A stretch of DNA of 47,963 bases, from the IMG/VR virus record IMGVR_UViG_3300033999_000220, positions 1 through 47,963 of that record; one strand, written 5' to 3'. The translations under genes and the position numbers were made by a program. Positions 12,413-41,896 of this stretch are shown here, one piece after another. Under the pieces are notes generated by a model. It searched no databases, was not told the DNA's origin, and worked only from the letters and a program-made list of their open reading frames with translations. The stretch comes from a virus. The stretch's first letter is position 1. Each line of letters starts with the position of its first letter.

Positions 12413-12923
12413 CACCATCATCCTCAACCGCAAAAAGTACAGGATCATAATCTTTAAGCTCTGTCAGGGCTTCCAAAATCTCATCTTCAATAATGCTGCT
12501 TATCTCAGCCAGGTTATTGAGGCTTATCAGCTTTGGAGCTAATTTTTGCGGAATGCCTAAAATGCGGTTTCTGAACACCGTCAGCATGTTGGTCATGACC
12601 ATCTCGACGTCCGCAGCATCATGCATCTGGTTCTTGAGCTTGGACAACTTAAGCTCTGCCATTTCCCGTTTGGCAGCCTCATGCTTTGCCCTCTCTTCCC
12701 AATAGATCGACTTTGCTTCCTGTCCTTCCTTGTCGGTCTTGCCGGTCCTTAGAAATTCGATGTATTTGCTTATATTCGGTTCGAGAGGCCAGCGCCCAGG
12801 CGCTCGCCTTTCCAAGATGCCTTCTTTGGCAAGCTGATTTATATATCGTCTCGTTACGCCAAAGAGCTTGGCTAAAACGTCGGTATTAACAATTATGCCG
12901 GAGACATCTGTTTTAACAGACAT
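12366..12923 (-). CDS. Terminase small subunit (Nu1-like)
   Basis: A 185-residue DNA-binding partner of the large subunit. The N-terminal 60 residues hold a Nu1-type winged helix (NTDVLAKLFGVTRRYINQLAKEGIL, then RAPGRWPLEPNISKYI), and the rest is a long Glu/Lys helix that joins subunits, ending in a very acidic tail. I start at the ATG at 12923, after AAGGTGTGG. It is the first gene of the late block; the terminator hairpin at 12942-12980 ends 19 bases upstream of the start, so this gene can only be read through that hairpin or from an unseen start. Confidence 0.9.
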   Translation of the reverse strand: MSVKTDVSGIIVNTDVLAKLFGVTRRYINQLAKEGILERRAPGRWPLEPNISKYIEFLRTGKTDKEGQEAKSIYWEERAKHEAAKREMAELKLSKLKNQMHDAADVEMVMTNMLTVFRNRILGIPQKLAPKLISLNNLAEISSIIEDEILEALTELKDYDPVLFAVEDDGDEQDDDSDEDSETVR

Positions 12924-12941
12924 ATTAACCACACCTTTATA

Positions 12942-12980
12942 CAATAAAAAACACCAACGCACCTGTTTAATGCGTTGGTG
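12942..12980 (-). terminator. Rho-independent terminator before the late genes
   Basis: On the minus strand a perfect 10-bp stem (CACCAACGCA / TGCGTTGGTG) with a 9-base loop is followed directly by six T residues. It ends leftward transcripts coming from the early region, yet lies only 19 bases before the terminase start, leaving little room for another promoter. Confidence 0.85.
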
Positions 12981-13022
12981 GACGGAACTCTAGTGAAATT
13001 TTTTTGACACCTAGGCAAAGAT

Positions 13023-13040
13023 CGGGGCTCGCCGCCATCG
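13023..13040 (-). other. Candidate cosN-like packaging site
   Basis: The minus strand reads GATGGCGGCGAGCCCCG here. The core GGCGGCGA is the same as in lambda's cos (GGGCGGCGACCT), and the place just upstream of the Nu1-like gene is also the same. The likeness is short and by eye; no cut has been shown. Confidence 0.45.
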
Positions 13041-13101
13041 CAAGCTTCTATTCCACCAGAAGGACCCGTAAAACAGCTTATTTAACAGATACCAATACTA
13101 C

Positions 13102-13119
13102 TGTATATAATTATATACA
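13102..13119. promoter_or_regulatory. 18-bp perfect AT palindrome, possible late promoter or operator
   Basis: TGTATATAATTATATACA is a perfect palindrome and contains TATAAT on both strands. On the minus strand no good -35 is seen at the right distance, as expected if an activator such as the ArpU-like protein is needed. It lies between the last early gene and the cos candidate, where a lambda-like late promoter would be. Confidence 0.45.
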
Positions 13120-13165
13120 TGTTTTACTCTCAATTTTGCCAGGATTCTGCCAAGATTACATATAA

Positions 13166-13630
13166 CTAATCGTCCTCCTCATTATTCGAATAATAATGCA
13201 TGATTCTTCTTATCCTGCACTGTACCCATTTATGTTTACGTTTTTTTCTTTCTCGACCCAAATAAGCATCGAGAATGGCAGGATTAAGCGCTAATCTAAA
13301 GTACGCATTTGGGCTTTCCGGACCCTCTGGTATTACGTCCCATCCTAACCGAAACACTGCTTCAATCAAGGCCCCATTGCTAGCAAGACCGCTTTTAATT
13401 TGTACGACATCCTTAAGAACATCAGATCTCATTTTATAATTAATGTAGTATTGTCGCGGACGAGCATATTCAAGCAACCATGCCATACAATTCTGTACAG
13501 TCGCCACGTCAGGTGGCATTTCATTAAGCGATTCTCCTTTGTCTAAAATCTTTTGTCTAAGACACTGGGATAATAATCCTTCTTCTGTTATTACATATTT
13601 AACACCATCATATGTAAAACTAATTTGCAT
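13166..13630 (-). CDS. Hypothetical protein of the early region
   Basis: A 154-residue protein I do not recognise. It starts with QISFTYDGVKYVITEEGLL, a beta-rich leader, then has helices and a basic stretch near the end (GRERKKRKHKWVQCRIRRI) that could bind nucleic acid, and ends in NNEEDD. The ATG at 13630 follows GAGGTG and overlaps the stop of the HTH gene, so the two are likely co-translated. It is the last gene before the cos/terminator region, the place where lambda carries its antiterminator Q; whether it acts that way is a guess. Confidence 0.6.
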   Translation of the reverse strand: MQISFTYDGVKYVITEEGLLSQCLRQKILDKGESLNEMPPDVATVQNCMAWLLEYARPRQYYINYKMRSDVLKDVVQIKSGLASNGALIEAVFRLGWDVIPEGPESPNAYFRLALNPAILDAYLGRERKKRKHKWVQCRIRRIMHYYSNNEEDD

Positions 13631-22312: not shown

Positions 22313-22338
22313 AACATTCTCAAATGAGGGCGATAATT

Positions 22339-23037
22339 ATGCTGACCGGAGACGAAATACGCAAGGCAAGGAAAGCTAAAAAACTTACGCAATCTGAACT
22401 TGCTGCTATGATAGGAGTATCACGATCAGCTATTTACGATTGGGAAAAAGGCAAATATTACCCAACCGGCGAACGTGCTATTAAACTGGCAAAAGCCTTA
22501 GGGCTTCCAATTTCAAAATTTTTGCCAGATTATTTTCAAAATGGGGGGGATGCTGATCAGAAAAAATCTGGCGAAGTTTCTTCCACCAACCACAACATTA
22601 TTTTGGTTCCATTGCTCTCGGACATAATAAAAGCTTGTTGTGGCATGGGCAATGGATATGAGTTTCCTGATGATATAATTGAGGAGAGATTGGCAGTGGA
22701 CGTGGATTCTTTAGGGCCGGTTAATACAAAGGGCATGTTTGCTTGTAAAGTAGAAGGGGACTCAATGGCTGCAGCTAGGATTTATGATGGGGATATTATT
22801 ATTGTCGCACCAGAAGAAGAACCAAGAGATGGGGATGTTGTTTTGATATGCTATGGAGCACACCAAAGATGGATGATTAGATGGTTTTATTCTCAAAGAG
22901 ATGGTTCTATTATCCTGAAGGCAGCAAACCCAGAATATCCGGAAGTAAGAGTTACGCCTGAAGATGTAGATTACGGATGGTATAAATATTTGGGGAAAGT
23001 AATAGCATATCAAGGATCACCCAAAAAGGGCATTTAA
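22339..23037 (+). CDS. CI-like repressor, HTH plus S24 peptidase-like domain
   Basis: A 232-residue lysogeny repressor. Residues 3-60 are an XRE HTH and about 88-225 an S24/LexA-like domain. The serine is present (VEGDSM, Ser142), but the catalytic Lys expected in the 'VKR' position is Arg181 (WMIRWFY), and the usual Ala-Gly cleavage site reads Ala-Cys (VPLLSDIIKAC). So RecA-driven self-cleavage may be lost and induction may need another signal. I start at the ATG at 22339, after GAGGG; the ATG at 22324 lacks a ribosome site. Confidence 0.9.
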   Translation: MLTGDEIRKARKAKKLTQSELAAMIGVSRSAIYDWEKGKYYPTGERAIKLAKALGLPISKFLPDYFQNGGDADQKKSGEVSSTNHNIILVPLLSDIIKACCGMGNGYEFPDDIIEERLAVDVDSLGPVNTKGMFACKVEGDSMAAARIYDGDIIIVAPEEEPRDGDVVLICYGAHQRWMIRWFYSQRDGSIILKAANPEYPEVRVTPEDVDYGWYKYLGKVIAYQGSPKKGI

Positions 23038-27493: not shown

Positions 27494-27532
27494 CCCATTC
27501 CCTCACGCCCCCGCCTCACGGCCCGGGCACGA

Positions 27533-27563
27533 GGCCACTTGCGAAAACGCAGGTGGCCTTTTT
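27533..27563 (+). terminator. Terminator between the AcrIII-1 block and the type IV-B operon
   Basis: An 11-bp stem with one G-T pair (GGCCACTTGCG / CGCAGGTGGCC), a 4-base A loop and five T residues. A weak TTGTTA-17-TGCTAA promoter at 27562-27590 follows and may start the next operon. Confidence 0.85.
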
Positions 27564-27610
27564 GTTATCATAAAGAACATGGAGTGCTAAAAAATAAGGA
27601 GGACATACAA

Positions 27611-27772
27611 ATGGAGAAAACTAAAAAGCTCAATTTCAGAATTACCGACGAACTTCACAGAAAGCTCAAAATCATTGCTATTAAAGAAGGCAGGACGATG
27701 AATGACATCATATGCAGCCTGATAGAACAGTACGTAGAACAATACGAGGAGGGCGAAGATGCATTTAAGTGA
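27611..27772 (+). CDS. Ribbon-helix-helix protein heading the type IV-B operon
   Basis: A 53-residue Arc/CopG-type DNA-binding protein: KKLNFRITDELHRKLKIIAIKEGRTMNDIICSLIEQYVEQYEEGED. The strand, helix, helix layout with 'RTMNDII' is typical. Its end overlaps the Csf1-like gene by 14 bases. Such proteins usually control their own operon; here it could time expression of the Csf proteins. The start at 27611 has AGGAGG upstream. Confidence 0.85.
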   Translation: MEKTKKLNFRITDELHRKLKIIAIKEGRTMNDIICSLIEQYVEQYEEGEDAFK

Positions 27773-28391
27773 ACTGCTGGCTGTTGCTACAGGCAGCGAT
27801 ATCGGGAAAGGCGATATCGCGGGTATCTGTGTCGTTTGTGGGGCCGAGACCGAATGCGGGATACCACTCAAAAAAGTGGTCTCGGATAACTTCACGGGCT
27901 GGAATTGTTTCTTCGCCGGCAACTGTACCTGTCCTGAATGTGCATTTATCTTCTCTGATCAGACATTCAGAAGAAAGTCGTGGGTGGCATCTCTGTCCGG
28001 TTTCAAGACGTTCAAGAACGATGAGGCATGCTCAATTCTCTTTTCGCCACCGGACCCCCCATTTTTCATTCACATAGCAAAGCTTGGCCAGAAGCAGACA
28101 TGGCTGCGCTGTCTGCACAACGTGGCCAATAGCACGAACAAATACTGGTTCTCCCACGAAGGTTACGATATTCCTATTCTTTTCGAGAAGGACAAAGCCG
28201 TGTCTTACCTTGATACGGCGTTATCTGCTCTTGGGTTGGGGATAACCAAAACAGAGCTCAGGACAGGCGAATTTAAACTCAAGACCTGGAGGGAGGCGTA
28301 TGAAAAAGGTTATCAGGATTTTTTGCGCAGCATTCGCAGTTTGAAAAATAATCTGCTCTGGGAGGTGATAGTCGATGTCGCAAGAAGATGA
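27759..28391 (+). CDS. csf1: Type IV CRISPR Csf1-like large subunit (Cas8-like)
   Basis: A 210-residue protein with the Csf1 zinc-finger layout: CVVCG (residues about 25-29) and, after the NFTGWNCFF segment, CTCPECAFIF (about 62-71), then a RRKSWVASLSGFKTF segment. The rest is helical and basic at the end. Csf1 caps the type IV complex in the place of Cas8. GAGGAGG precedes the ATG. Its identity rests on the finger pattern, size and the clear Csf2 and Csf3 genes after it; sequence likeness of Csf1 proteins is always low. Confidence 0.82.
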   Translation: MHLSELLAVATGSDIGKGDIAGICVVCGAETECGIPLKKVVSDNFTGWNCFFAGNCTCPECAFIFSDQTFRRKSWVASLSGFKTFKNDEACSILFSPPDPPFFIHIAKLGQKQTWLRCLHNVANSTNKYWFSHEGYDIPILFEKDKAVSYLDTALSALGLGITKTELRTGEFKLKTWREAYEKGYQDFLRSIRSLKNNLLWEVIVDVARR

Positions 28392-28752
28392 AGACAGGAT
28401 CATCGAAATGCTGGCATTGATTTACAACGCAGTCGACTGGAAGAAAATGAAGACCTCAAAGAACCCTCATGATATATTCAACCATCGCGTGAGGGCAGCA
28501 AGCAGGAGGGGAACCATCTTTGAGGCCGTTTCGAAGCTGGCCAATTATTTCGGCCTTCAATCTCTCCCGACCGGAGCCATACGCATTGCCCAACAGCTCC
28601 GGCCAATCGAACAGGAAGTGCTAAATAAGCTTTACGCCGAGCATATCCCCATGTCCATGCTTGCCATCATGAGAGCAAAGGAAATGAGGGACGAAAGGCG
28701 AAAATTAAGGGATGAAAACAATAATTCGGAAGAGGTGATCAGAATTGCATAA
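28375..28752 (+). CDS. cas11: Type IV-B small subunit (Cas11-like)
   Basis: A 125-residue, wholly helical and charged protein (EDRIIEMLALIYNAVDWKKMK, then FNHRVRAASRRGTIFEAVSKLANYFG, then PMSMLAIMRAKEMRDERRKLRD). Size, composition and place between Csf1 and Csf2 fit the Cas11 subunit of type IV-B, which lines the belly of the complex. It overlaps both neighbours (17 and 8 bases), so the subunits are made together. The name is from position and character rather than a strong motif. Confidence 0.72.
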   Translation: MSQEDEDRIIEMLALIYNAVDWKKMKTSKNPHDIFNHRVRAASRRGTIFEAVSKLANYFGLQSLPTGAIRIAQQLRPIEQEVLNKLYAEHIPMSMLAIMRAKEMRDERRKLRDENNNSEEVIRIA

Positions 28753-29578
28753 ATATTATAAAGTGGAAGGGTCAGTTACCGCACTTACACCGATATTTCA
28801 TGGCGGGGACGAAAAGACGGGCTCAACGCCGGTCCTTCGTACAATCATGGTCTTTGTGGACGGCATCGGGGAGGTGCCGATACCCTATATATCCGGGAAC
28901 GGCATCAGGGGGAAGCTCCGAAGAATGGCCATGAAGGATTTTATAGATGGTGTAGGACATGAGATCCAGAACGTCAAACTGCACCATGTGCTCTTCTCGG
29001 GCGGGATCCTGGAATCCACCGAGGAAACCTCCGGCAGCATAGACTTAGTGCTGCGAAAGAAAGTCAGAGAGCTCATGCCTCCTGTGGCGCTCTTTGGCTG
29101 TGCAATAGGCAACCAGATGATACAGGGCATTCTTACGGTCGAGCACATGTGGCCGATATGCCTTGAATACAGCGCTTACCTACCCGAAAAATATCAAAGA
29201 GACCAAAGGGCAATGCAGCCGATACGCACTTTCACAGACCAGAGCTTCATAACCAGAAGGGACGATCTGAGGGCAGAAAGGACAGCAGACGAACAGGCAG
29301 TGCAAATGAAGGTAGATTACGAATGCTTTGTGCCGGGAACGAAGTTCTATCACCGTTTTATCGTGCAACTACCGGACGAGCTTCAAAAAAGCTGTTTTGG
29401 GAGGGTCATGGATCTGTTTGCCATGATGCCCTATATCGGAGGGCGAGGCTCTGGAGGAGACGGAAAGGTTATGTTGTCGTATGACAATATCCCCAGCGCT
29501 GATCTATATATGGAGTTTCTTGCAGAAAAGAAGGACGAAATCAGACAGCTGTTGCAGGAACTGGAGGCGAGGCTGTAA
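28745..29578 (+). CDS. csf2: Type IV CRISPR Csf2 (Cas7-like backbone)
   Basis: A 277-residue RAMP protein begun at TTG with GAGGTG upstream. The family start is clear: KVEGSVTALTPIFHGGDEKTG, then EVPIPYISGNGIRGKLRRMAM, the loop that grips the guide RNA in Cas7 proteins. A later GGRGSGGDGKVMLSYD is the closing Gly-rich segment. Csf2 subunits polymerise along RNA to form the helical backbone. No CRISPR array, Cas6 or DinG-like helicase lies near, which is the mark of subtype IV-B. Confidence 0.9.
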   Translation: MHKYYKVEGSVTALTPIFHGGDEKTGSTPVLRTIMVFVDGIGEVPIPYISGNGIRGKLRRMAMKDFIDGVGHEIQNVKLHHVLFSGGILESTEETSGSIDLVLRKKVRELMPPVALFGCAIGNQMIQGILTVEHMWPICLEYSAYLPEKYQRDQRAMQPIRTFTDQSFITRRDDLRAERTADEQAVQMKVDYECFVPGTKFYHRFIVQLPDELQKSCFGRVMDLFAMMPYIGGRGSGGDGKVMLSYDNIPSADLYMEFLAEKKDEIRQLLQELEARL

Positions 29579-30315
29579 TGCTTGATGAGAGGAAATACTT
29601 CCATGACCGCCTCGCAAGTGCACCGCCGATTCGATGGGGGCGTTTTGCCCCCTTCCGGATCTCATTTAAGATGGGGTCACCGGTAGCAGTCACCATGCCA
29701 TGGATCAACTTTGACGGCCTTATAGCACATCTCATGTTACTTGATGCTCTCGGCGATGACTTCTTTATCACGCCAAAAAAGCTCGATCTGACCGACAGCC
29801 TGCCCAAAAACAGAAGACTGCTGCCCATCAAAAAAACCGGAGATATATATCATGCAAGCGTAAGTATGTTTATCCCCGACAGCTTGCGCGTCACGCATCT
29901 TTATAAAAGATTTGAGGACAGATGGACCAATAACCTGAAGACCAAAAAGGTGAGTATAGCATCCGGTAAATTCCGTTCTTACTTCATGGCCGAGCCATAC
30001 ATTCCATGTCGTGAGGTCGTATATTATGTCTTCGGAGATATGAATATCATTCAAGACCTCATAGAAAGCTATCTCTTTGGGTTGGGCAATGACTGCAGAG
30101 TAGGGTTCGGAATGGTGCGTGATGTGGTATTCGAGGAGATGGACGAGGATATGTCTCTCGTTGCCAAGGGAATTGCGATGCGTCCCATACCTGTCGATAT
30201 GTGCGAAGAATATGAAGATTCTGCGTACATTGCCTATAAAGCACCGTACTGGAATCCGAGAAACGTTGCGCTCTGCGTGCCTCCCGGAGTTAAATGCAAA
30301 TTGAAAAGGTTGTGA
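29578..30315 (+). CDS. csf3: Type IV CRISPR Csf3 (Cas5-like)
   Basis: A 245-residue RAMP protein joined to the Csf2 gene as TAATG. The pattern SPVAVTMPWINFDGLIAHLMLLDAL early on, the RRLLPIKKTGDIYHASVSMF segment, and the late LGNDCRVGFGMVRDVVFEEMDEDMSLVAKGIAMRPIP with its Gly-rich loop are typical of Csf3. Cas5-type subunits hold the 5' end of the guide. It belongs to the same overlapping operon as Csf1, Cas11 and Csf2. Confidence 0.88.
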   Translation: MLDERKYFHDRLASAPPIRWGRFAPFRISFKMGSPVAVTMPWINFDGLIAHLMLLDALGDDFFITPKKLDLTDSLPKNRRLLPIKKTGDIYHASVSMFIPDSLRVTHLYKRFEDRWTNNLKTKKVSIASGKFRSYFMAEPYIPCREVVYYVFGDMNIIQDLIESYLFGLGNDCRVGFGMVRDVVFEEMDEDMSLVAKGIAMRPIPVDMCEEYEDSAYIAYKAPYWNPRNVALCVPPGVKCKLKRL

Positions 30316-31013
30316 TGGTAGTGGACTTGAAGAAAATACTTGCCATGTGGGCCGATACGGACGAATTCAAGGAGAAGCTGCAGGAGGCTGACGGCATCAT
30401 CAAAAAGGCACTTGCATCGCACAAAAAACCTTACGTCGCCTACAGCGGGGGGAAGGACTCGAGCTGCATGCTTTACCTCGTCCTCCGCCGTTGCCCTGAC
30501 GTGACGGTACTACACTGGGATTATGGGCCGTATTATATCCCCGACTGGCTAAGAACCGAGTTTATAGAAAATGCAAGGAAAATCGGGGCCAAGAATTTAC
30601 GTATCGAGACCAGCGACGATTATCTAAGGCTCAAACGGCACGCAGTTAATGTACTGGGTCGGGAATATATTGGAAAGCTTATTCCAAACCTTGCAAGAGA
30701 AGGATATGATCTTAGTTTTGTAGGTCTTAGGCGTGAGGAAAGCCTGAAGCGCAAAATAAGGATCGATACAAAAAAATTCATCACTGAAATTGAAGAATGT
30801 TGGCCTCTAGCTAACTGGTCATGGAAGGACGTATGGGCGTGTATATTTGCTAATAATATCCCTTATGCAAGCACATATGATATATATGCCCCTGTGGTGG
30901 GCTGGGATAAGGTAAGACTTGTGACCTTCTTTGATCCCGAGTTTGACCATTTCGGAGCCGGCAACGTTGACGGCGTCCTCATGTGGAGATTTAAAAATAT
31001 TCATCAGGGGTGA
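30315..31013 (+). CDS. CysH-like PP-loop protein of the type IV-B locus
   Basis: A 232-residue PAPS-reductase-like protein. VAYSGGKDSSCMLYLVLRR holds the PP-loop (SGGKDS at about 44-49) that binds and splits ATP, followed by VTVLHWDYGPYYIPDWL and FVGLRREESLKRKIR, then the family's WPLANWSWKDVWACI. The start at 30315 overlaps the Csf3 stop as TGATG. CysH-like genes are the known companion of type IV-B loci, though their job there is unknown. It lacks a plain reductase Cys motif near the end, so adenylation or nucleotide chemistry is likelier than sulphate reduction. Confidence 0.88.
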   Translation: MVVDLKKILAMWADTDEFKEKLQEADGIIKKALASHKKPYVAYSGGKDSSCMLYLVLRRCPDVTVLHWDYGPYYIPDWLRTEFIENARKIGAKNLRIETSDDYLRLKRHAVNVLGREYIGKLIPNLAREGYDLSFVGLRREESLKRKIRIDTKKFITEIEECWPLANWSWKDVWACIFANNIPYASTYDIYAPVVGWDKVRLVTFFDPEFDHFGAGNVDGVLMWRFKNIHQG

Positions 31014-31018
31014 ATGTC

Positions 31019-31906
31019 ATGATACGTATAGGGATGGAAGATGACGAGAAAAAGAGGATGATTGACAGCTATGTTGCAGAAAATGACATCAGGAAAGTAT
31101 TTATATTCTATTATAAGGACTTTCTATTAGAATACGACAATGCAGACATAGAGGTAGAACATGTCGAATATGCCGACATAATTATGTATAAATTCTTCTA
31201 CCGTCTGCTTGAAGAGATAGACAACAATGTCCTGCTTGTGTTCAACGAATGCATGCGCACGCAGAACAGGAGCGATCTCACATACAACTGCGCTCATCAT
31301 TACTGTAACCAGACAAAGCATAAGATCGTTTTCGAATATTTCCCGTTCATCGAAGATAACGCAGATTTCATGATTCTTCTCGATTTCCTCAATAAATATA
31401 AGTACAAAGGCAAATCATTCAGGTATGAGCTGCTTGCAGAAGAAGATATCCTCGCCGTGCCCAAATCTTTCACGATCAGAACTATCGACGTTAGCATCAC
31501 TCAAAAAGATATTGCGAAATATGAAAAGCTCAAGGAAGATCTTTTTAACAATCTAGGTGAATCGGATCCAGATATAATTCCGAGAAGGCTGCATGTTTGG
31601 GCCGGCAATCTCAAAAAAAGCTGTATTAAACCTGACTTGCTCTATGTTGCGAGAAACAAGCGGTTCAAGCTGCCTAATGTAGTGACTTATAAAGAAGTAG
31701 AAGAAAGAGACTATATTATCATCGACATGTCTCACAGAAGAATAGATTTTAATGATTTCCTAAAAAAGACAAAAATGAGAGATATTGTGTTTATTAATAC
31801 AGGCCTGAAGGTTGACCTGTATTACGTAAATGATTTAAGGGAGTGGGCGGAAAGGTTAGGTGAGTTCTATGATAAAGCAGGTTTATATCGACAAAAATGT
31901 GCTTGA
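31019..31906 (+). CDS. Unrecognised protein between two PP-loop genes
   Basis: A 295-residue protein I cannot assign. It opens with helix and strand (MIRIGMEDDEKKRMIDSYV, then IRKVFIFYYKDFLLEYDNADIEVEHVEYADIIMYKFFYRLLEEIDNNVLLVFNECMRTQNRSDL), which reads like a Rossmann-like alternation with NECMRTQNRSD a possible conserved core, and ends with VFINTGLKVDLYYVNDL. It overlaps the next gene by 38 bases and nearly abuts the CysH-like gene, so it is made with both. It may be a partner or substrate adaptor of the PP-loop enzymes. Confidence 0.75.
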   Translation: MIRIGMEDDEKKRMIDSYVAENDIRKVFIFYYKDFLLEYDNADIEVEHVEYADIIMYKFFYRLLEEIDNNVLLVFNECMRTQNRSDLTYNCAHHYCNQTKHKIVFEYFPFIEDNADFMILLDFLNKYKYKGKSFRYELLAEEDILAVPKSFTIRTIDVSITQKDIAKYEKLKEDLFNNLGESDPDIIPRRLHVWAGNLKKSCIKPDLLYVARNKRFKLPNVVTYKEVEERDYIIIDMSHRRIDFNDFLKKTKMRDIVFINTGLKVDLYYVNDLREWAERLGEFYDKAGLYRQKCA

Positions 31907-32987
31907 GGCTACGAAAGAACGTATAGCGTTCGTTTTTGACGAATTCGAGAATATCATCGTATCCATCAGCGGAGGCAAGGACAGCACCGTGCTTGCCCAT
32001 TTGGCCCTCACCGAAGCCCACAGGCGCAACAGGCGGATAGGCATCTTTTTCCTGGACGAAGAGGTTGTCTACGAAAGTACCGTGAAACAGGTCGAGTACA
32101 TCATGAACTTATATCCGGAGAATACCATCCCGCTGTGGTTTCAGATTGAATTCAATCTCACCAACGCCAGCAGCCTGACGCAGACACAGCTGATTCCTTG
32201 GGAAGCCGGCAAGCATAAGATATGGATGAGGCCGAAGCAGAAAAACTCGATCCAGCATAAGCCTTGGCCCAAGGAGACCGAGACGGTCCGGGATAAAAAC
32301 AAAGGTTTCGGATTCTATGATGCCCTTGAGAATTTTCAGAGATCAAGGCATGATACCGCCTTTTTGATTGGCCTGCGTGCTACAGAAAGCCCCAACCGTT
32401 GGCGTGCGGTATCGAAAAATCCGGGTTACAAGAACATATACTGGAGCACAAAGCTCAAAAACAACAACTATAACATGTATCCGCTTTATGACTGGAATTT
32501 CCATGACATTTGGAAATATATCTATGACAACCAGCTTCGCTATTCGAAGATATATGACTATATGTTCAAGAAAGGCATGGGACTGAAAGAAATACGTGTA
32601 TCCAGCCTTATACACGAAAAATCATTTAAGTCTCTCGTAGAACTGCCAGAATTCGAGCCAAAGACATATGACAGGCTGCTAAGGAGGATAAGGGGCATCA
32701 GCGTAGGGCATATATACGGGAAGGACAGCAAGGCATTGCGGGCGCGCAAACTTCCGAAGAATTTTAAGACGTGGATCGAATACAGGGACTTCCTGCTTGC
32801 AACATATCCGGATCCTAGCAAGAAATGGATATTCGAGAAGCGTTTCAGCAGGCAGCTCAACAATTCATATGTGGCACGGCAGCAGTGCAGGCAGTTGCTG
32901 TTGAACGACTACGAGAACAACCTGCCGATAGACAATAAGCCTGATCCAAGAGAGGAAAAGATCGAGAAATGGAGGAGATTATTATGA
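31869..32987 (+). CDS. IbrA-like PP-loop protein (DUF3440 type)
   Basis: A 372-residue second PAPS-reductase-like protein. ENIIVSISGGKDSTVLAHLAL has the PP-loop (about 34-39), then IGIFFLDEEVVYESTVKQVEYI, later TAFLIGLRATESPNRWRAV, and MYPLYDWNFHDIWKYI. The long C-terminal region, with RLLRRIRGISVGHIYGKD and a RQCRQLLLNDYEN end, is the part that marks DUF3440/IbrA proteins. IbrA with IbrB alters host gene expression in E. coli; how is unknown. The next gene begins inside its stop (ATGA). Confidence 0.88.
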   Translation: MIKQVYIDKNVLEATKERIAFVFDEFENIIVSISGGKDSTVLAHLALTEAHRRNRRIGIFFLDEEVVYESTVKQVEYIMNLYPENTIPLWFQIEFNLTNASSLTQTQLIPWEAGKHKIWMRPKQKNSIQHKPWPKETETVRDKNKGFGFYDALENFQRSRHDTAFLIGLRATESPNRWRAVSKNPGYKNIYWSTKLKNNNYNMYPLYDWNFHDIWKYIYDNQLRYSKIYDYMFKKGMGLKEIRVSSLIHEKSFKSLVELPEFEPKTYDRLLRRIRGISVGHIYGKDSKALRARKLPKNFKTWIEYRDFLLATYPDPSKKWIFEKRFSRQLNNSYVARQQCRQLLLNDYENNLPIDNKPDPREEKIEKWRRLL

Positions 32988-33526
32988 GGACAATACAGAC
33001 GCAAAAAGGTGAAATTAAACTTACATGTATGGACGTCAGGATAGTCGACATCGACTCGGTGCAGGCAAATACATATAACCCCAATTCCGTCCCCAGAAAT
33101 AACATGAGATTGCTGGAGGAATCAATCATCTCGAACGGCTTCTGCTATCCTGTCGTCACAGTTTATGATCCTGACATAGAAAAATACATCATAGTAGATG
33201 GCTTTCACAGATACATCATATTCCGTGACTGGCTGCAGGCCAAGGAGATCCCGATCATCGTCTTGGATCACGACATCTCGGAACGCATGGAGGCCACCGT
33301 GCAGTTTAACCGTGCCAGGGGGGTCCACCAGGTTGAACTTATGGGTGATCTGGTCAAGGCTCTTGTCGAACAGGGAGTAGATGACCAGGAAATAGCCGTA
33401 AAACTGGGCATGGAGTTGGAGGAAGTATACAGGCTTAAGCAGATTACGGGCATTGCGGAACTGTTTAAAAATCAGGAATACTCAAGGGCATGGGAAATAA
33501 TCGAGGTGGACGACGATGCCGTCTAA
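32984..33526 (+). CDS. IbrB-like ParB-domain protein
   Basis: A 180-residue protein with a ParB/sulfiredoxin-type N-terminal domain: VQANTYNPNSVPRNNMRLLEESIISNGFCYPVVTVYD, then IIVDGFHRYII with the DGxHR motif at about 72-76. An HTH-like QEIAVKLGMELEEVYRLKQI follows. ParB-fold proteins can bind or split CTP or ATP and bind DNA. Paired with an IbrA-like gene it matches the IbrA/IbrB couple. I start at the ATG at 32984, overlapping IbrA by 4 bases. Confidence 0.86.
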   Translation: MRTIQTQKGEIKLTCMDVRIVDIDSVQANTYNPNSVPRNNMRLLEESIISNGFCYPVVTVYDPDIEKYIIVDGFHRYIIFRDWLQAKEIPIIVLDHDISERMEATVQFNRARGVHQVELMGDLVKALVEQGVDDQEIAVKLGMELEEVYRLKQITGIAELFKNQEYSRAWEIIEVDDDAV

Positions 33527-34259
33527 AAAATGGGATTACGGCGATGCTTATTTGCACCATCCGATATCGGACAACCAGCTTGTCGTCTTTGACAACAGAA
33601 GCGTCGTGAAAGTGCATGACATCTTTGATCCTTTGCCTTGTTTCATGAAACAGGCTGACGTCATCTTTACGGACCCGCCATGGAATCTTGGCAACTTAAA
33701 CACCTTTTATATGAAAGCACAAAAACAGGAAAGGCATAAATCATTTGAGAGGTTTTACCTGAGGCTTTTTGAATGCATCGCAGATATCAATCCTAGGTCA
33801 TGTTATGTTGAGGTGGGAAAGACATATTTGAGCGAGTTTATACATGAAATGAAAAAGCTTTACAAATATGTCACATTCTATAATAGCTGCTATTATCACA
33901 GAAAAGAAAACATCTGCTATATAGTCCACGGCAGCTATAAGAGAAAGAAATTGCCATTGGACTACACGGACGAGGAAGACGCTATTGCATGGGTCTGCGA
34001 AAACGAAGAATATGACTGTATAGGGGATCTGTGCATGGGCAGGGGTTTGGTCGGTGTTAACGCTTACAAAAATGGCAAAAGGTTCGTCGGCACCGAACTA
34101 AACCATAAAAGGTTGGCCGTTCTTTTGGAAAGAATTGTAAATATGGGTGGAACTTACAGGCTAGTCAAATATTCGCCTTGTCGTCCAGCCAGTCTGCCCA
34201 CCACTGCATCATCTCTCTTCTCTGATCAAGATATTCGGCATGATTGTAGGCAGCTCTGA
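33516..34259 (+). CDS. DNA methyltransferase-like protein (DPPW type)
   Basis: A 247-residue amino-methyltransferase. Motif IV comes first (VIFTDPPWNLGN, DPPW at 53-56), and the AdoMet-binding motif later (DLCMGRGLVGVNAYKNGKRFVGTELNHKRL, about 171-200), the order of beta-class enzymes. It would methylate adenine N6 or cytosine N4. No restriction gene is nearby, so protection or control is likelier than restriction. The last 30 codons (from 34165) lie antisense to the end of the integrase gene and look non-conserved, so the gene's original 3' end may have been replaced when it was joined to the integrase. Confidence 0.85.
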   Translation: MPSKKWDYGDAYLHHPISDNQLVVFDNRSVVKVHDIFDPLPCFMKQADVIFTDPPWNLGNLNTFYMKAQKQERHKSFERFYLRLFECIADINPRSCYVEVGKTYLSEFIHEMKKLYKYVTFYNSCYYHRKENICYIVHGSYKRKKLPLDYTDEEDAIAWVCENEEYDCIGDLCMGRGLVGVNAYKNGKRFVGTELNHKRLAVLLERIVNMGGTYRLVKYSPCRPASLPTTASSLFSDQDIRHDCRQL

Positions 34260-35319
34260 CCGCATTCTTTTCTACATGCGCCAGCTGGCGTTCTATGACG
34301 TCGGCTGGCCATCCGTTTTCGTTCAAGATCGTGGAGGCCATGGATCTGAAGCCGTGGCCGGTAAAATCTTCCTGCCCATATCCTAATCTCCGCAGGGCAG
34401 CATTTACAGTTGTGTCGCTCATGGACCTGCTGAAGGAGCGCGCAGAAGGGAAGACGAATCTGGAAGAAGACGTAAAAGGCCTCAAGCTGGCGAGCACGCT
34501 CACGGCCTGTTTTGAGAGCGGCACGATGTGCATTCTTCTCATCTTCATCTTTTCTGCCGGTATTCGCCATTCGGCAGCCTCAAGGCTGACCTCCTCCCAT
34601 TCGGCCGTCCTGAGTTCCCCGGGACGCACAAATGTATATGCCAAGACAAGCAAGGCGCTTCTTACGATCTCAGATCCGTTCAGCCCCCTGATCGCCCGCA
34701 TCAGGGCACCTATTTCCTGCGGATCCGTTATTGTGGGATAGCCGGCAGTTTTAACCGGCACCAAGGCGCCGCGCAGGTCGGCAGCAATATCACGTTCGGC
34801 CATGCCTATGGCTATTCCATATCTGAATATCTGGCTGCATATTTGGAGCACACGATGGGCAGTTTCATATGTCCCCCTTGCCTCTATCATGCGAATGATG
34901 GCAAGGATGTCGGTAGGCGAAATCTCCGATATGAGCTTTTGGCCTATATACGGCAATATAAGCCTGTCAAGCCTTGAGGTGACTGTTCGGATGTGGTTCT
35001 TGGTGCGGATAGGGAAAACTTTTTTCTGAAGCCAGTCCTGCGCCACGGCCTCGAAGGTCTTATCGATCAGCTTTGAGACCGGTTGTCCGGACCTCATCAC
35101 AGAGGTCTTCATTTCATCTCTTATTTCCCTGGCCTCTTTCAGGCCTACGGCAGGATATTGGCCAATGGAATGCTTGTATTCTTTTCCGTCTATCCAGTAC
35201 CTGAGCCTCCAGTATTTTTTGCCTGAAGGCATGACTTCCAGATAAAGCCCATCCCCGTCAGAGAGCATATATCTTTTTTCTTTGATCTTAGCCTTTTTAA
35301 TAGCGTTATCCGTAAGCAT
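34165..35319 (-). CDS. int: P4-type tyrosine integrase
   Basis: A 384-residue integrase. The N-terminal arm-binding domain is DUF4102-like (DGDGLYLEVMPSGKKYWRLRYWIDGKEYKHSIGQYPAVGLKEAREIRDE), followed by a core-binding region and the catalytic domain: Arg in VRPGELRTAEW, HGFRSMASTIL with His and Arg, the ERQLAH segment, and Tyr in RAAYNHAEYLDQRREMM. I start at the ATG at 35319 with AGGAG; upstream codons to 35385 only translate the attP arm repeats. It converges on the accessory operon. Confidence 0.94.
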   Translation of the reverse strand: MLTDNAIKKAKIKEKRYMLSDGDGLYLEVMPSGKKYWRLRYWIDGKEYKHSIGQYPAVGLKEAREIRDEMKTSVMRSGQPVSKLIDKTFEAVAQDWLQKKVFPIRTKNHIRTVTSRLDRLILPYIGQKLISEISPTDILAIIRMIEARGTYETAHRVLQICSQIFRYGIAIGMAERDIAADLRGALVPVKTAGYPTITDPQEIGALMRAIRGLNGSEIVRSALLVLAYTFVRPGELRTAEWEEVSLEAAEWRIPAEKMKMRRMHIVPLSKQAVSVLASLRPFTSSSRFVFPSARSFSRSMSDTTVNAALRRLGYGQEDFTGHGFRSMASTILNENGWPADVIERQLAHVEKNAVRAAYNHAEYLDQRREMMQWWADWLDDKANI

Positions 35320-35333
35320 TCCCGAGTCTCCTT

Positions 35334-35589
35334 TGTGTACGGTGGCAACTCGGCGTGTGTACGGTTCTGTGTACGGTTTGATCATGGTTTGTATAGTTTT
35401 TCATTGAACTGCGTTGAACAGCCAAGCTGCCAGAAATGCCGTTTGTATCATGCTATTTGAACTATATCATACTCGGTTGGACTTAATAATGGTGGAGGCG
35501 GGGGGAATCGAACTGAATATAACTTTTTCAGTTGTACACGAGGAATATCCACACATGTGAATATGTTGTGTACGGTTCTGTGTACGGTT
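35334..35589. other. attP region with arm-type integrase sites
   Basis: TGTGTACGGTT occurs at 35356-35366 and 35368-35378 (12 bases apart), with a shorter copy at 35334-35343, and again on the other side at 35567-35577 and 35579-35589 (again 12 apart). They flank the core at 35490-35513. Paired arm sites on both sides of a core, next to int, are the mark of attP. Confidence 0.85.
35490..35513 (-). other. attP core: 3' end of a tRNA-Ala or tmRNA gene
   Basis: The minus strand reads GTTCGATTCCCCCCGCCTCC followed by ACCA: T-loop, T-stem, an acceptor strand CGCCTCC, discriminator A and CCA. No other part of a tRNA is here, so it is the crossover core that restores the host gene after integration. 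tRNA-Ala and tmRNA share this end, so I cannot tell which. Confidence 0.85.
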
Positions 35590-38943: not shown

Positions 38944-39972
38944 TTAATTCCTCCTTAAAACAAGATATTTTAAAGCAGAAACAGTACTACAATATCCATT
39001 ACAGTGTTGCATATAACCTATGAAACTAAATACGCGACTCTTAGCATACTCAAGGTCAACTTCACCTCTTGCATATCTTCTACTGATGCTTTTAAATCGC
39101 TTCTTAGCAGCTTTAACATTCCGTTTGCGTGGTAGTATATGTGTTTTCCATGTCCTATATCCCGCAAAATCAACACCTTGAGATGCAGGATATATGCGTG
39201 TCTTAGGGTTAAGATAAAGCTTCAGCTTTGTTTCAACGAACCACTTTATCTCTGCTAGGATGTCTTTTAAATAATGCTTGGTAGGGCCTAAAAGAATCAT
39301 GTCATCCATATATCTGACGTAGAACTTGACCCTAAGCTTTTCTTTTACAAAATGATCTGCCTCGGAAAGATAATGATTGGCCAATGTTTGGCTTGTCAGC
39401 GCTCCTATTGGTATTCCTCGTCCCGTTACGTTGTTAGTCTCTATGATTGTTTTATACAAAGATAGCACTTCCTTTTCGCGAAAGGTGCGTTTTAAGATAT
39501 CAAGTAATGTTTGGTGATGTATAGATTGAAAGTATTTGGATATATCTACTTGCAAAACATATACTCGCCCCCACATACACCATGCCCTATATAGAAAATC
39601 TTTTGTTCTGGACACACACCTGTGAACTCCTTTCCCGCGTCGGCAAGCATAAGAATCGTAAATCCACTTTCGCTCCATGAATGGCTGAGTTATGCCAATG
39701 AATGCGTGATGCACTACTCTGTCGCAAAATGCAGGTGCCTGAATTAACCTTCTTTTAAGCGTATCTACTTTGATAAACTCCCTAAACGGCGAAGGTCTCC
39801 ATCTTCCAGCTATTAGGTTGTCTTGTATTTTAAAGATGTTCTCCTCAAGACGATCTGAGAAACGCAGAACCTCAAGCTGATATCGCTTGCCTTTTCTAGC
39901 TTCGTTAAATCCCCTTAAAAGATTTTCAAAGGAAACAATCTGTGTCCATAAATCACCGTAACTTTTAGGCAT
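38944..39972 (-). CDS. DGR reverse transcriptase
   Basis: A 342-residue reverse transcriptase of the diversity-generating retroelement type. Motifs in order: RLIQAPAFCDRVVHHAF, VDISKYFQSI (catalytic Asp about 143), RGIPIGALTSQTLANHYL (the 'IGxxTSQ' motif typical of DGR enzymes), YVRYMDDMILLG (YMDD at 221-224) and LNPKTRIYPASQGVDFAGYRTW. I start at the ATG at 39972, which has GGAGG at the right distance. With Avd it copies the template repeat with errors at adenines. Confidence 0.95.
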   Translation of the reverse strand: MPKSYGDLWTQIVSFENLLRGFNEARKGKRYQLEVLRFSDRLEENIFKIQDNLIAGRWRPSPFREFIKVDTLKRRLIQAPAFCDRVVHHAFIGITQPFMERKWIYDSYACRRGKGVHRCVSRTKDFLYRAWCMWGRVYVLQVDISKYFQSIHHQTLLDILKRTFREKEVLSLYKTIIETNNVTGRGIPIGALTSQTLANHYLSEADHFVKEKLRVKFYVRYMDDMILLGPTKHYLKDILAEIKWFVETKLKLYLNPKTRIYPASQGVDFAGYRTWKTHILPRKRNVKAAKKRFKSISRRYARGEVDLEYAKSRVFSFIGYMQHCNGYCSTVSALKYLVLRRN

Positions 39973-39992
39973 ATAATCCTCCATTCAAAATC

Positions 39993-40029: not shown

Positions 40030-40133
40030 TTCTTTTGATATTTCGCCAATTTTACTGGCGTGGACACCGTTTCCCAAAGGAAAAGGCACTGACGAAATGC
40101 CCTTGAGCGATTTCGCTTCTGGCCGCAATTTCC

Positions 40134-40238
40134 CCTTTGCGAGGCGCCCGCCGATATTCGTGTTCGAGTTCGAGGAAGGATTGTTCAAATTCAACCTGAA
40201 CAACCCGTAGTTCGAGCCGTTATTCCAGCTGCCGCCAT
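40134..40238 (-). repeat. DGR template repeat (TR)
   Basis: This 105-bp stretch matches the fibre's variable repeat at 40669-40773 (offset 535) except at about nine sites. On the minus strand eight of the nine TR bases that differ are adenine, and its would-be codons are rich in AAC/AAT, as in known TRs. It lies outside any gene, between avd and the RT gene. Confidence 0.95.
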
Positions 40239-40649: not shown

Positions 40650-40663
40650 ATCAGCACCCCAGA

Positions 40664-41896
40664 TTACACCTTTGCGAGGCGCCCGCCGATAGTCGTGTGC
40701 GAGTCCGAGGAAGGATCGTTCAAATTCAACCTGAACAACCCGTAGTACGAGCCGTAATGCCAGACGCCGCCATGATAGCAAACTTTAGTCGTGCCATCTT
40801 TTACAATAGAAAAGTAATCGCTCCATGACCCTTGCCCCATAGATGGTGTGGTGGTTGATGGAATAAATAGCGCTTTTAGATCAAACCCACTTCCTGCCGT
40901 ATCTGCCATGTTAACTACCCATCCGCTATTTGGTAGGGTAACTCCTGTGTTAACCCATGACTGCGACCCATTTTTGTTCCATATCCAAAGTACACCGTCT
41001 CTGTTTTCTATGCCCTGCACCATGCACCATACATTCCCCCATAGTTCGTGTATTGCACGCCATATGGCGTTGGTATATCCTGTGTTCATGGCAGAACCAC
41101 CTGACGGGCAATCGCAGTTCCCTCGCCCTAGTATGGTCTGAGAATCGGGTGCCCCCATCTCCACTAAAGCTAAGTATTGGATTGCTGCTATTTGATATAT
41201 ATCGATTAGCCTGAACCCTGTAACCCCTCCAGTGTTTCTTGCAGAGCATCTGGATACCATCGTGGGAAAGTCTATGCTCACTAAAGGGGGTTTATTGTTC
41301 CAGCTGGCAGCTTTTGACGTACCGTCTGCAACTGCTTCATATGCCCCCACCCAGAAGTTATCAATCTCGGCACCTACGTTATTCAAAAATGCAGGATGCA
41401 CCTCAGATCCGTTGAATGCCGTTTTATTAATAAACCATGCCTTTTTACCTGCGTAAGGCCCTGACGCAAGAGTCAGCCTGGCATAGTGGAATTTGTCGAT
41501 ATTAACCATGGCCTGATTATCTATAGAGGATACATTGATCTGGTATTCGGGCCTTGAAGAAAAATATCCAGATGGTACGGCTATCGGATCCCCCGCCAGA
41601 TTTACCCTGTCCCAGACGCCTGCTCCTCCTCCGCCCTGGACTAACACAACGCCGACAGGCTCGGTCAGCGTCGGCGTCCGCCTTGGCCCCGAATATATAA
41701 GGCTTCCCTCTATGTTAACGTCCTTTTCGGTCACAAATGCAGGTAAATTGGCAAAAGCGGTAGATCCGTCGCCGCCTTTATATTTATTGGACGTCATGTC
41801 ATAGCCCAATTCACCCTTATCGAGAGGTTGTATTTCTGCATTCCATTCATCGGTCACGCCTCTCTTGACCGTGATAATTCTGGTTTCATCTGCCAT
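40664..41896 (-). CDS. Variable tail fibre / receptor-binding protein (DGR target)
   Basis: A 410-residue fibre tip. Residues about 1-60 look like the Mtd-type N-terminal knob (WNAEIQPLDKGELGYDMTSNKYKGGDGSTAFANLPAF). The C-terminal 240 residues have a formylglycine/C-type-lectin-like fold (GFRLIDIYQIAAIQYLALVEMG, then WNKNGSQSWVNTG) ending in the diversified stretch with HYGSYYGLFRLNLNDPSSDSHTTIGG. The variable part codes the receptor-binding surface. The gene follows the collar fibre gene and ends just before avd. Confidence 0.93.
   Translation of the reverse strand: MADETRIITVKRGVTDEWNAEIQPLDKGELGYDMTSNKYKGGDGSTAFANLPAFVTEKDVNIEGSLIYSGPRRTPTLTEPVGVVLVQGGGGAGVWDRVNLAGDPIAVPSGYFSSRPEYQINVSSIDNQAMVNIDKFHYARLTLASGPYAGKKAWFINKTAFNGSEVHPAFLNNVGAEIDNFWVGAYEAVADGTSKAASWNNKPPLVSIDFPTMVSRCSARNTGGVTGFRLIDIYQIAAIQYLALVEMGAPDSQTILGRGNCDCPSGGSAMNTGYTNAIWRAIHELWGNVWCMVQGIENRDGVLWIWNKNGSQSWVNTGVTLPNSGWVVNMADTAGSGFDLKALFIPSTTTPSMGQGSWSDYFSIVKDGTTKVCYHGGVWHYGSYYGLFRLNLNDPSSDSHTTIGGRLAKV
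40669..40773 (-). repeat. DGR variable repeat (VR)
   Basis: The last 105 bases of the fibre gene, up to its stop. Compared with the TR, the VR has changes that alter Asn codons to His, Tyr, Asp and Thr at several positions. The unchanged GC-rich end (GGCGGGCGCCTCGCAAAG) is a likely start point for mutagenic homing. Confidence 0.95.

Follow-up and report, generated by a model that had tools for sequence, protein, structure and literature searches.

The plasmid-borne type IV-B CRISPR-Cas system of Mycobacterium sp. JS623 (PDB 7jhy) consists of Csf1, Cas11, Csf2, Csf3 and a CysH-like partner, with no array, Cas6 or DinG. The studied Mycobacterium complex assembles on short RNA without sequence preference, and co-expressed crRNAs are not preferred (PMC7937560); a role as a sponge has been proposed for it, and the CysH partner has been called key to IV-B function (PMC7937560, PMC8175902). 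Type IV-A systems repress without cutting (PMC11656645, PMC12669027). As to viruses, a review lists phages and prophages among the carriers of type IV (PMC11656645), and Fuxivirus, a virus of Bathyarchaeia, has Csf1, Cas11, Csf2 and Csf3 adjoining CysH (PMC10848311). The window analyzed here, i.e., the entire 47,963 nucleotides of record IMGVR_UViG_3300033999_000220, resembles the Mycobacterium plasmid in all five components and in the lack of array, Cas6 and DinG, but its system resides on a temperate phage, is headed by a ribbon-helix-helix (RHH) gene and is extended by u298, IbrA, IbrB and a methylase-like gene. With Fuxivirus it shares the virus-borne Csf set next to CysH, but not the two-repeat mini-array, the Cas4 gene or the archaeal host, and the accessible text makes no mention of the IbrA/IbrB found in the window operon (PMC10848311). 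Skermania phage SPI1 (KR011061, genes about SPI1_40-44) likewise carries a Csf2 relative neighbored by Csf3- and CysH-like genes, but it is very distant (24% identity in Csf2), its proteins are annotated as hypothetical only, and no IbrA/IbrB pair was found nearby. The IbrA/IbrB of E. coli and phages have the same two adjacent domains as the pair in the window and, in E. coli, have been reported to regulate target genes; elsewhere, however, the pair usually occurs without csf, whereas here IV-B, u298 and a methylase-like gene all belong to its operon.

The record represents a temperate myophage with genes for tail sheath, capsid, protease, portal, terminase, RecE, a CI-like repressor (22324-23037), an integrase (34165-35385) and a reverse transcriptase. 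It is listed as linear in IMG/VR. A single tape-measure gene is cut by the two contig ends, across which its open frames join (389 residues lie at the left end, the remainder at the right), so that the phage record is close to complete with little missing. With the repressor region on one side and the integrase on the other, the csf operon comprises ten overlapping genes (27611-34259, + strand) in the order RHH, csf1, cas11, csf2, csf3, cysH, u298, IbrA-like, IbrB-like and methylase-like, with overlaps of 1-22 nt between neighbors. A preliminary description had placed a IV-B locus between the lysogeny genes and the integrase of a complete phage; this setting is borne out by the repressor and integrase positions, by the terminase, portal, capsid and tail sheath genes and by the tape-measure gene common to both ends, but the extent then given, 27611-30315, was too short, as the operon runs on past CysH to 34259. 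Directly 5' of the operon, an intrinsic terminator with a 13-bp stem and a T tract is predicted (27531-27566, + strand); a weak terminator-like hairpin is predicted 3' of it (34280-34309, + strand), with 10 terminator-like sites found versus 7.0 expected by shuffling lending it weak support. DNA shared with the relatives L001, L025 and L028 starts at 27594-27595, behind the upstream terminator, with unrelated DNA 5' of it; because this left homology border is sharp in all three relatives, the operon behaves as a cassette. Elsewhere in the record, a likely diversity-generating retroelement combines the reverse transcriptase gene (38944-39984, - strand; phrog_1423, 2.3e-111) with a repeat pair of 111 nt (40128-40238 and 40663-40773, 90% identical), one copy of which is located at the 3' terminus of a gene for a tail protein (40664-41896).

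At the head of the operon, a HicB/Arc-like ribbon-helix-helix regulator is encoded (27611-27772; Pfam HicB 1.1e-6, Arc-like repressor 8.5e-10), in agreement with the preliminary description, and this protein probably autoregulates the operon. It is followed by csf1 for the Cas8-like subunit (27759-28391; PADLOC Csf1_0_IV 1.6e-37, TIGR03114 1.9e-6), with two CxxC motifs at residues 24 and 58, by cas11 for the small subunit (28375-28752; PADLOC Cas11_0_IV 2.1e-36), by csf2 for the Cas7 backbone (28745-29578; PADLOC typeIV_Cas7 7.4e-81, TIGR03115 4.4e-15) and by csf3 for the Cas5-like subunit (29578-30315; PADLOC Csf3_0_IV 1.4e-53, TIGR03116 1.8e-18). The four overlapping genes, earlier taken for Csf1, Cas11, Csf2 and Csf3, are thus confirmed as such by PADLOC type IV profiles at E values of 1e-36 to 1e-80, and NCBIfam agrees for Csf1, Csf2 and Csf3 with TIGR scores that fall under the curated equivalog cut-offs. 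Csf2 matches the solved IV-B Csf2 (PDB 7jhy; 2.7e-12, 9e-20), and its closest solved relatives are the Cas7c-named entry 11fs and the IV-B 7jhy, ahead of AFERR-associated Csf2 structures. The presence of a Csf1-type and absence of a Cas10-like subunit excludes IV-C, while the Csf2 signature, the Csf1-type subunit, Cas11, Csf3 and the CysH-like ancillary protein, together with the lack of array, Cas6 and DinG in the record, sustain the earlier assignment to subtype IV-B. We consider it almost certain that a genuine type IV-B effector module, made up of Csf1-Cas11-Csf2-Csf3 and CasCysH, forms the front half of the operon. Within csf2, about 700 nt (window 28700-29400) differ by about 20% from L001, although csf3 and the CysH gene are identical; this divergence block may be read as gene exchange.

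CasCysH (30294-31013, + strand; PAPS_reduct 5.9e-14) is a PP-loop CysH-like protein that keeps the PP motif SGGKDS and, according to family alignments, lacks an invariant cysteine, none of the four cysteines of the window protein being invariant across the family. This is in line with the published description of CasCysH as having the PP motif but no catalytic cysteine (PMC8175902). Its structural model (pLDDT 85.9) matches CysH 6vpu. Identity amounts to 44-81% with the CysH proteins of most other csf loci and is lower with those of L014 (36%), a Thermococcus plasmid (37%) and SPI1 (25%); an ordinary phage PAPS reductase was rejected for 30294-31013 on the basis of the former values. The CysH-like gene reported earlier to follow csf3 is the one specific to IV-B.

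No source of guides became apparent. CRISPR arrays and mini-arrays were found neither in the window nor in the csf loci searched, and three contigs with a Cas6-type gene (L058, L063, L066) were free of arrays over most of their length, in searches that strongly degenerate or single repeats would escape; Rfam RNAs and tRNAs were not found either. The Cas6 search of the record returned only the Csf3 C-terminus (17.5 bits versus a cut-off of 58.65), and Csf3 as a Cas6 was rejected in view of this weak, C-terminal match. A DinG-type helicase, Cas1 and a Cas10 palm domain are likewise missing from the record, for which repeat and profile searches corroborate the previously noted absence of array, Cas6 and DinG. 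In the three phage-like contigs just mentioned, the csf operon includes a Cas6-type gene close to csf3 and CysH (L058 9563-10261, Pfam Cas6_C 7.6e-14; L063 10605-11381, 4e-26; L066), so that a CysH of IV-B type and an enzyme for crRNA processing are found in an unusual combination.

The back half of the operon (+ strand) starts with u298 (31010-31906), a degenerate SF2/SNF2-helicase-like protein according to its model (pLDDT 89.5; Foldseek SNF2 folds, E 1e-6), which lacks a Walker A motif in the family alignment and has no significant family in Pfam, NCBIfam, PADLOC or PHROG. The next gene encodes an IbrA-like PAPS-reductase-family protein with DUF3440 (31860-32987; PAPS_reduct 6.5e-15, DUF3440 2.8e-10, phrog_2302 3.9e-90), only about 21-27% identical to csf-locus CysH proteins where BLAST aligned the two. 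It adjoins an IbrB-like ParB-family gene (32969-33526; phrog_2159 1.2e-55, ParB_N 1.4e-5), which is the arrangement that defines IbrA/IbrB. The last gene (33516-34259) encodes an N6/N4 DNA-methylase-like protein with a DPPW motif, whose N6_N4_Mtase match (2.9e-4) is under the Pfam cut-off; the gene is conserved in the cassette.

Csf2 relatives were detected on 55 viral contigs in an alignment scan of IMG/VR and on 10 genome contigs, from organisms including Caldicoprobacter and Thermoanaerobacter, in a second scan. Terminase genes, recognized from the sequence of one cluster, lie nearby on several Csf2-bearing contigs, and the order csf1-cas11-csf2-csf3-cysH is conserved in most of 69 loci. 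Phage carriage of IV-B, which the preliminary description had put forward against a background of mainly plasmid-borne loci, is therefore supported but is not novel: it is widespread, and systems of this kind have already been reported in a few viruses, type IV being on record from phages and prophages (PMC11656645) and IV-B with CysH from an archaeal virus (PMC10848311).

The association of csf with IbrA/IbrB is recurrent. Both proteins were present in 20 of the 20 csf loci having either, and IbrA lay 0.55-4.7 kb from csf2 in 19 of the 19 loci measured, these counts including partly related records. Among 45 viral records with csf, 10 carried full-length IbrA, as against 0 of 26 records retrieved through the capsid gene of the window, a small control unmatched for host; IbrA matches occurred in 215 of 50,697 INPHARED phage records. 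On a Csf2 tree built without IV-A or IV-C references, the IbrA/IbrB label required 11 changes, 9 of these being forced by well-supported branches, a count limited by long branches and by plasmid loci hand-picked partly as non-Rhodococcus and, in one case, for also matching IbrA. The pair is situated upstream of csf1 in L013, between csf3 and cysH in L051-L053, L060 and L168, behind cysH in the window, L005 and L016, and interspersed with the core csf genes in L065, L160, L172 and L175 (the csf identities of L160, L168, L172 and L175 were confirmed by an independent check). It also lies near csf on three haloarchaeal (Halobacteria) plasmids and one Rhodovastum plasmid, but not on the one Rhodococcus and one Thermococcus plasmid inspected. 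Since about three quarters of csf loci are devoid of it, the pair is not essential. Thus, the csf-IbrA/IbrB partnership recurs in many phage lineages and on haloarchaeal and proteobacterial plasmids, bearing in mind that genes can come to lie together in the accessory regions of phages without having a function in common. No report of such a link was found in the literature covered, with two central surveys (Pinilla-Redondo 2020, Moya-Beltran 2021) lying outside its scope, and priority is not established.

Conversely, IbrA/IbrB often occurs without csf. A search starting from IbrA yielded 80 loci, 79 with IbrB, 7 with csf2, 14 with an SNF2 helicase and none with csf2 plus SNF2; the csf fraction is a biased rate because the IbrA alignment included csf-linked members. 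In the closest csf-free relatives, the gene order is cysteine-rich protein (about 390 residues, no Pfam match), SNF2 helicase, u298, IbrA, IbrB, methylase-like; the first two are replaced by Csf genes in the window and in five further loci. When 99 IbrA loci were combined, 10 had csf and 29 SNF2 without overlap (one-sided p 0.025, the loci not being independent), although two csf loci, L037 and L039, have an SNF2 match in their flanks. Mutual exclusivity of csf and the SNF2 helicase around IbrA is thus suggestive only. The csf-free phage operon is conserved in L077, L080, L090 and about 15 more IbrA loci.

The reading we favor, at a probability of roughly 0.35-0.4, is that a nuclease-free, RNA-loaded Csf complex directs nucleic-acid modification by the enzymes of the back half. 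Csf2 and Cas11 would assemble on short RNAs produced outside the locus, an RNA loading presumed by analogy with the Mycobacterium IV-B structure; the loaded filament would bind, but not cleave, nucleic acid of complementary sequence; and the PP-loop enzymes CasCysH and IbrA, along with the ParB-family and methylase-like proteins, would place a chemical mark on the nucleic acid so bound, or block it, whether it belongs to the host or to a competing element. For the chemistry, CasCysH, IbrA and IbrB may be regarded as candidate modifiers. Since neither guide RNA nor array was found, targeting by the complex stays inferred, and the lack of sequence preference in RNA binding by the studied IV-B complex (PMC7937560) counts against guided targeting. 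Also counted against the proposed mechanism is the near relative L025 (8001-8575), in which a deletion spans window 29003-30006, that is the csf2 3' part and the csf3 5' part, but which otherwise keeps the operon, be it through decay or an assembly error. A bolder version, which we regard as doubtful, would make this class 1 effector, after the loss of its array and nuclease and its union with a modification cassette, an RNA-programmed writer of marks (adenylation, thiolation, methylation) in phages and some archaeal plasmids, with the SNF2 helicase filling the same slot in relatives.

Among the competing explanations, a sponge or anti-guide function fares best, even if we deem it rather unlikely: the Csf filament would coat short RNAs non-specifically and so blunt host RNA-guided defences, and the downstream cassette would be a separate, perhaps anti-restriction, module merely on the shared transcript. 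Array, Cas6, adaptation genes and a nuclease partner are indeed all lacking from the record, the assembly of the Mycobacterium complex on non-specific RNA and the sponge role proposed for it (PMC7937560, PMC8175902) point the same way, and so does the frequency of IbrA/IbrB without csf; such a function would leave unexplained, however, why CasCysH is near-universal and why, in several lineages, the core csf genes have IbrA/IbrB in their midst. Somewhat less probable still is that the complex loads crRNAs of a host CRISPR system and acts as a transcriptional repressor of rival phages or plasmids. Here the precedent is the cleavage-free repression by type IV-A (PMC11656645, PMC12669027), and both the Cas6-type gene of the three CysH-bearing phage-like contigs and the mini-array of Fuxivirus (PMC10848311) would fit, but the csf loci searched and most of those three contigs are array-free and the studied complex did not prefer co-expressed crRNAs (PMC7937560). 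Least plausible is that IV-B and the IbrA/IbrB cassette are unrelated cargo repeatedly inserted at phage hot spots, as the clustering of phage accessory genes, the sharp left border at 27594 with unrelated upstream DNA in relatives and the commonness of IbrA/IbrB without csf might suggest, against which stand the overlap of the window genes within one operon, the way in which IbrA/IbrB and core csf genes are interspersed in four further loci, the joint occurrence on archaeal plasmids and the apparent exclusivity with the SNF2 helicase.

The roles suggested in the preliminary description for a phage-borne IV-B complex, contest with other phages or plasmids or action on host RNA, were neither borne out nor contradicted. 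The recurrent second partner, IbrA/IbrB and sometimes a methylase-like gene plus a degenerate helicase, points hypotheses towards nucleic-acid chemistry, and compact phage operons such as this one offer a concrete test system and a lead on the role of the complexes.

Variant architectures were observed among the relatives. In L172 (3-1283), L160 (1572-2867) and L159 (9811-11280), Csf2 is long and carries an extension at its N-terminus; that of L172 resembles Cas11 (3.6e-5), which points to a Cas11-Csf2 fusion. In the csf operon of L053, a Cas4-like PD-(D/E)XK nuclease (12890-13582; PDDEXK_1 4.4e-10) is encoded between IbrA and CysH.
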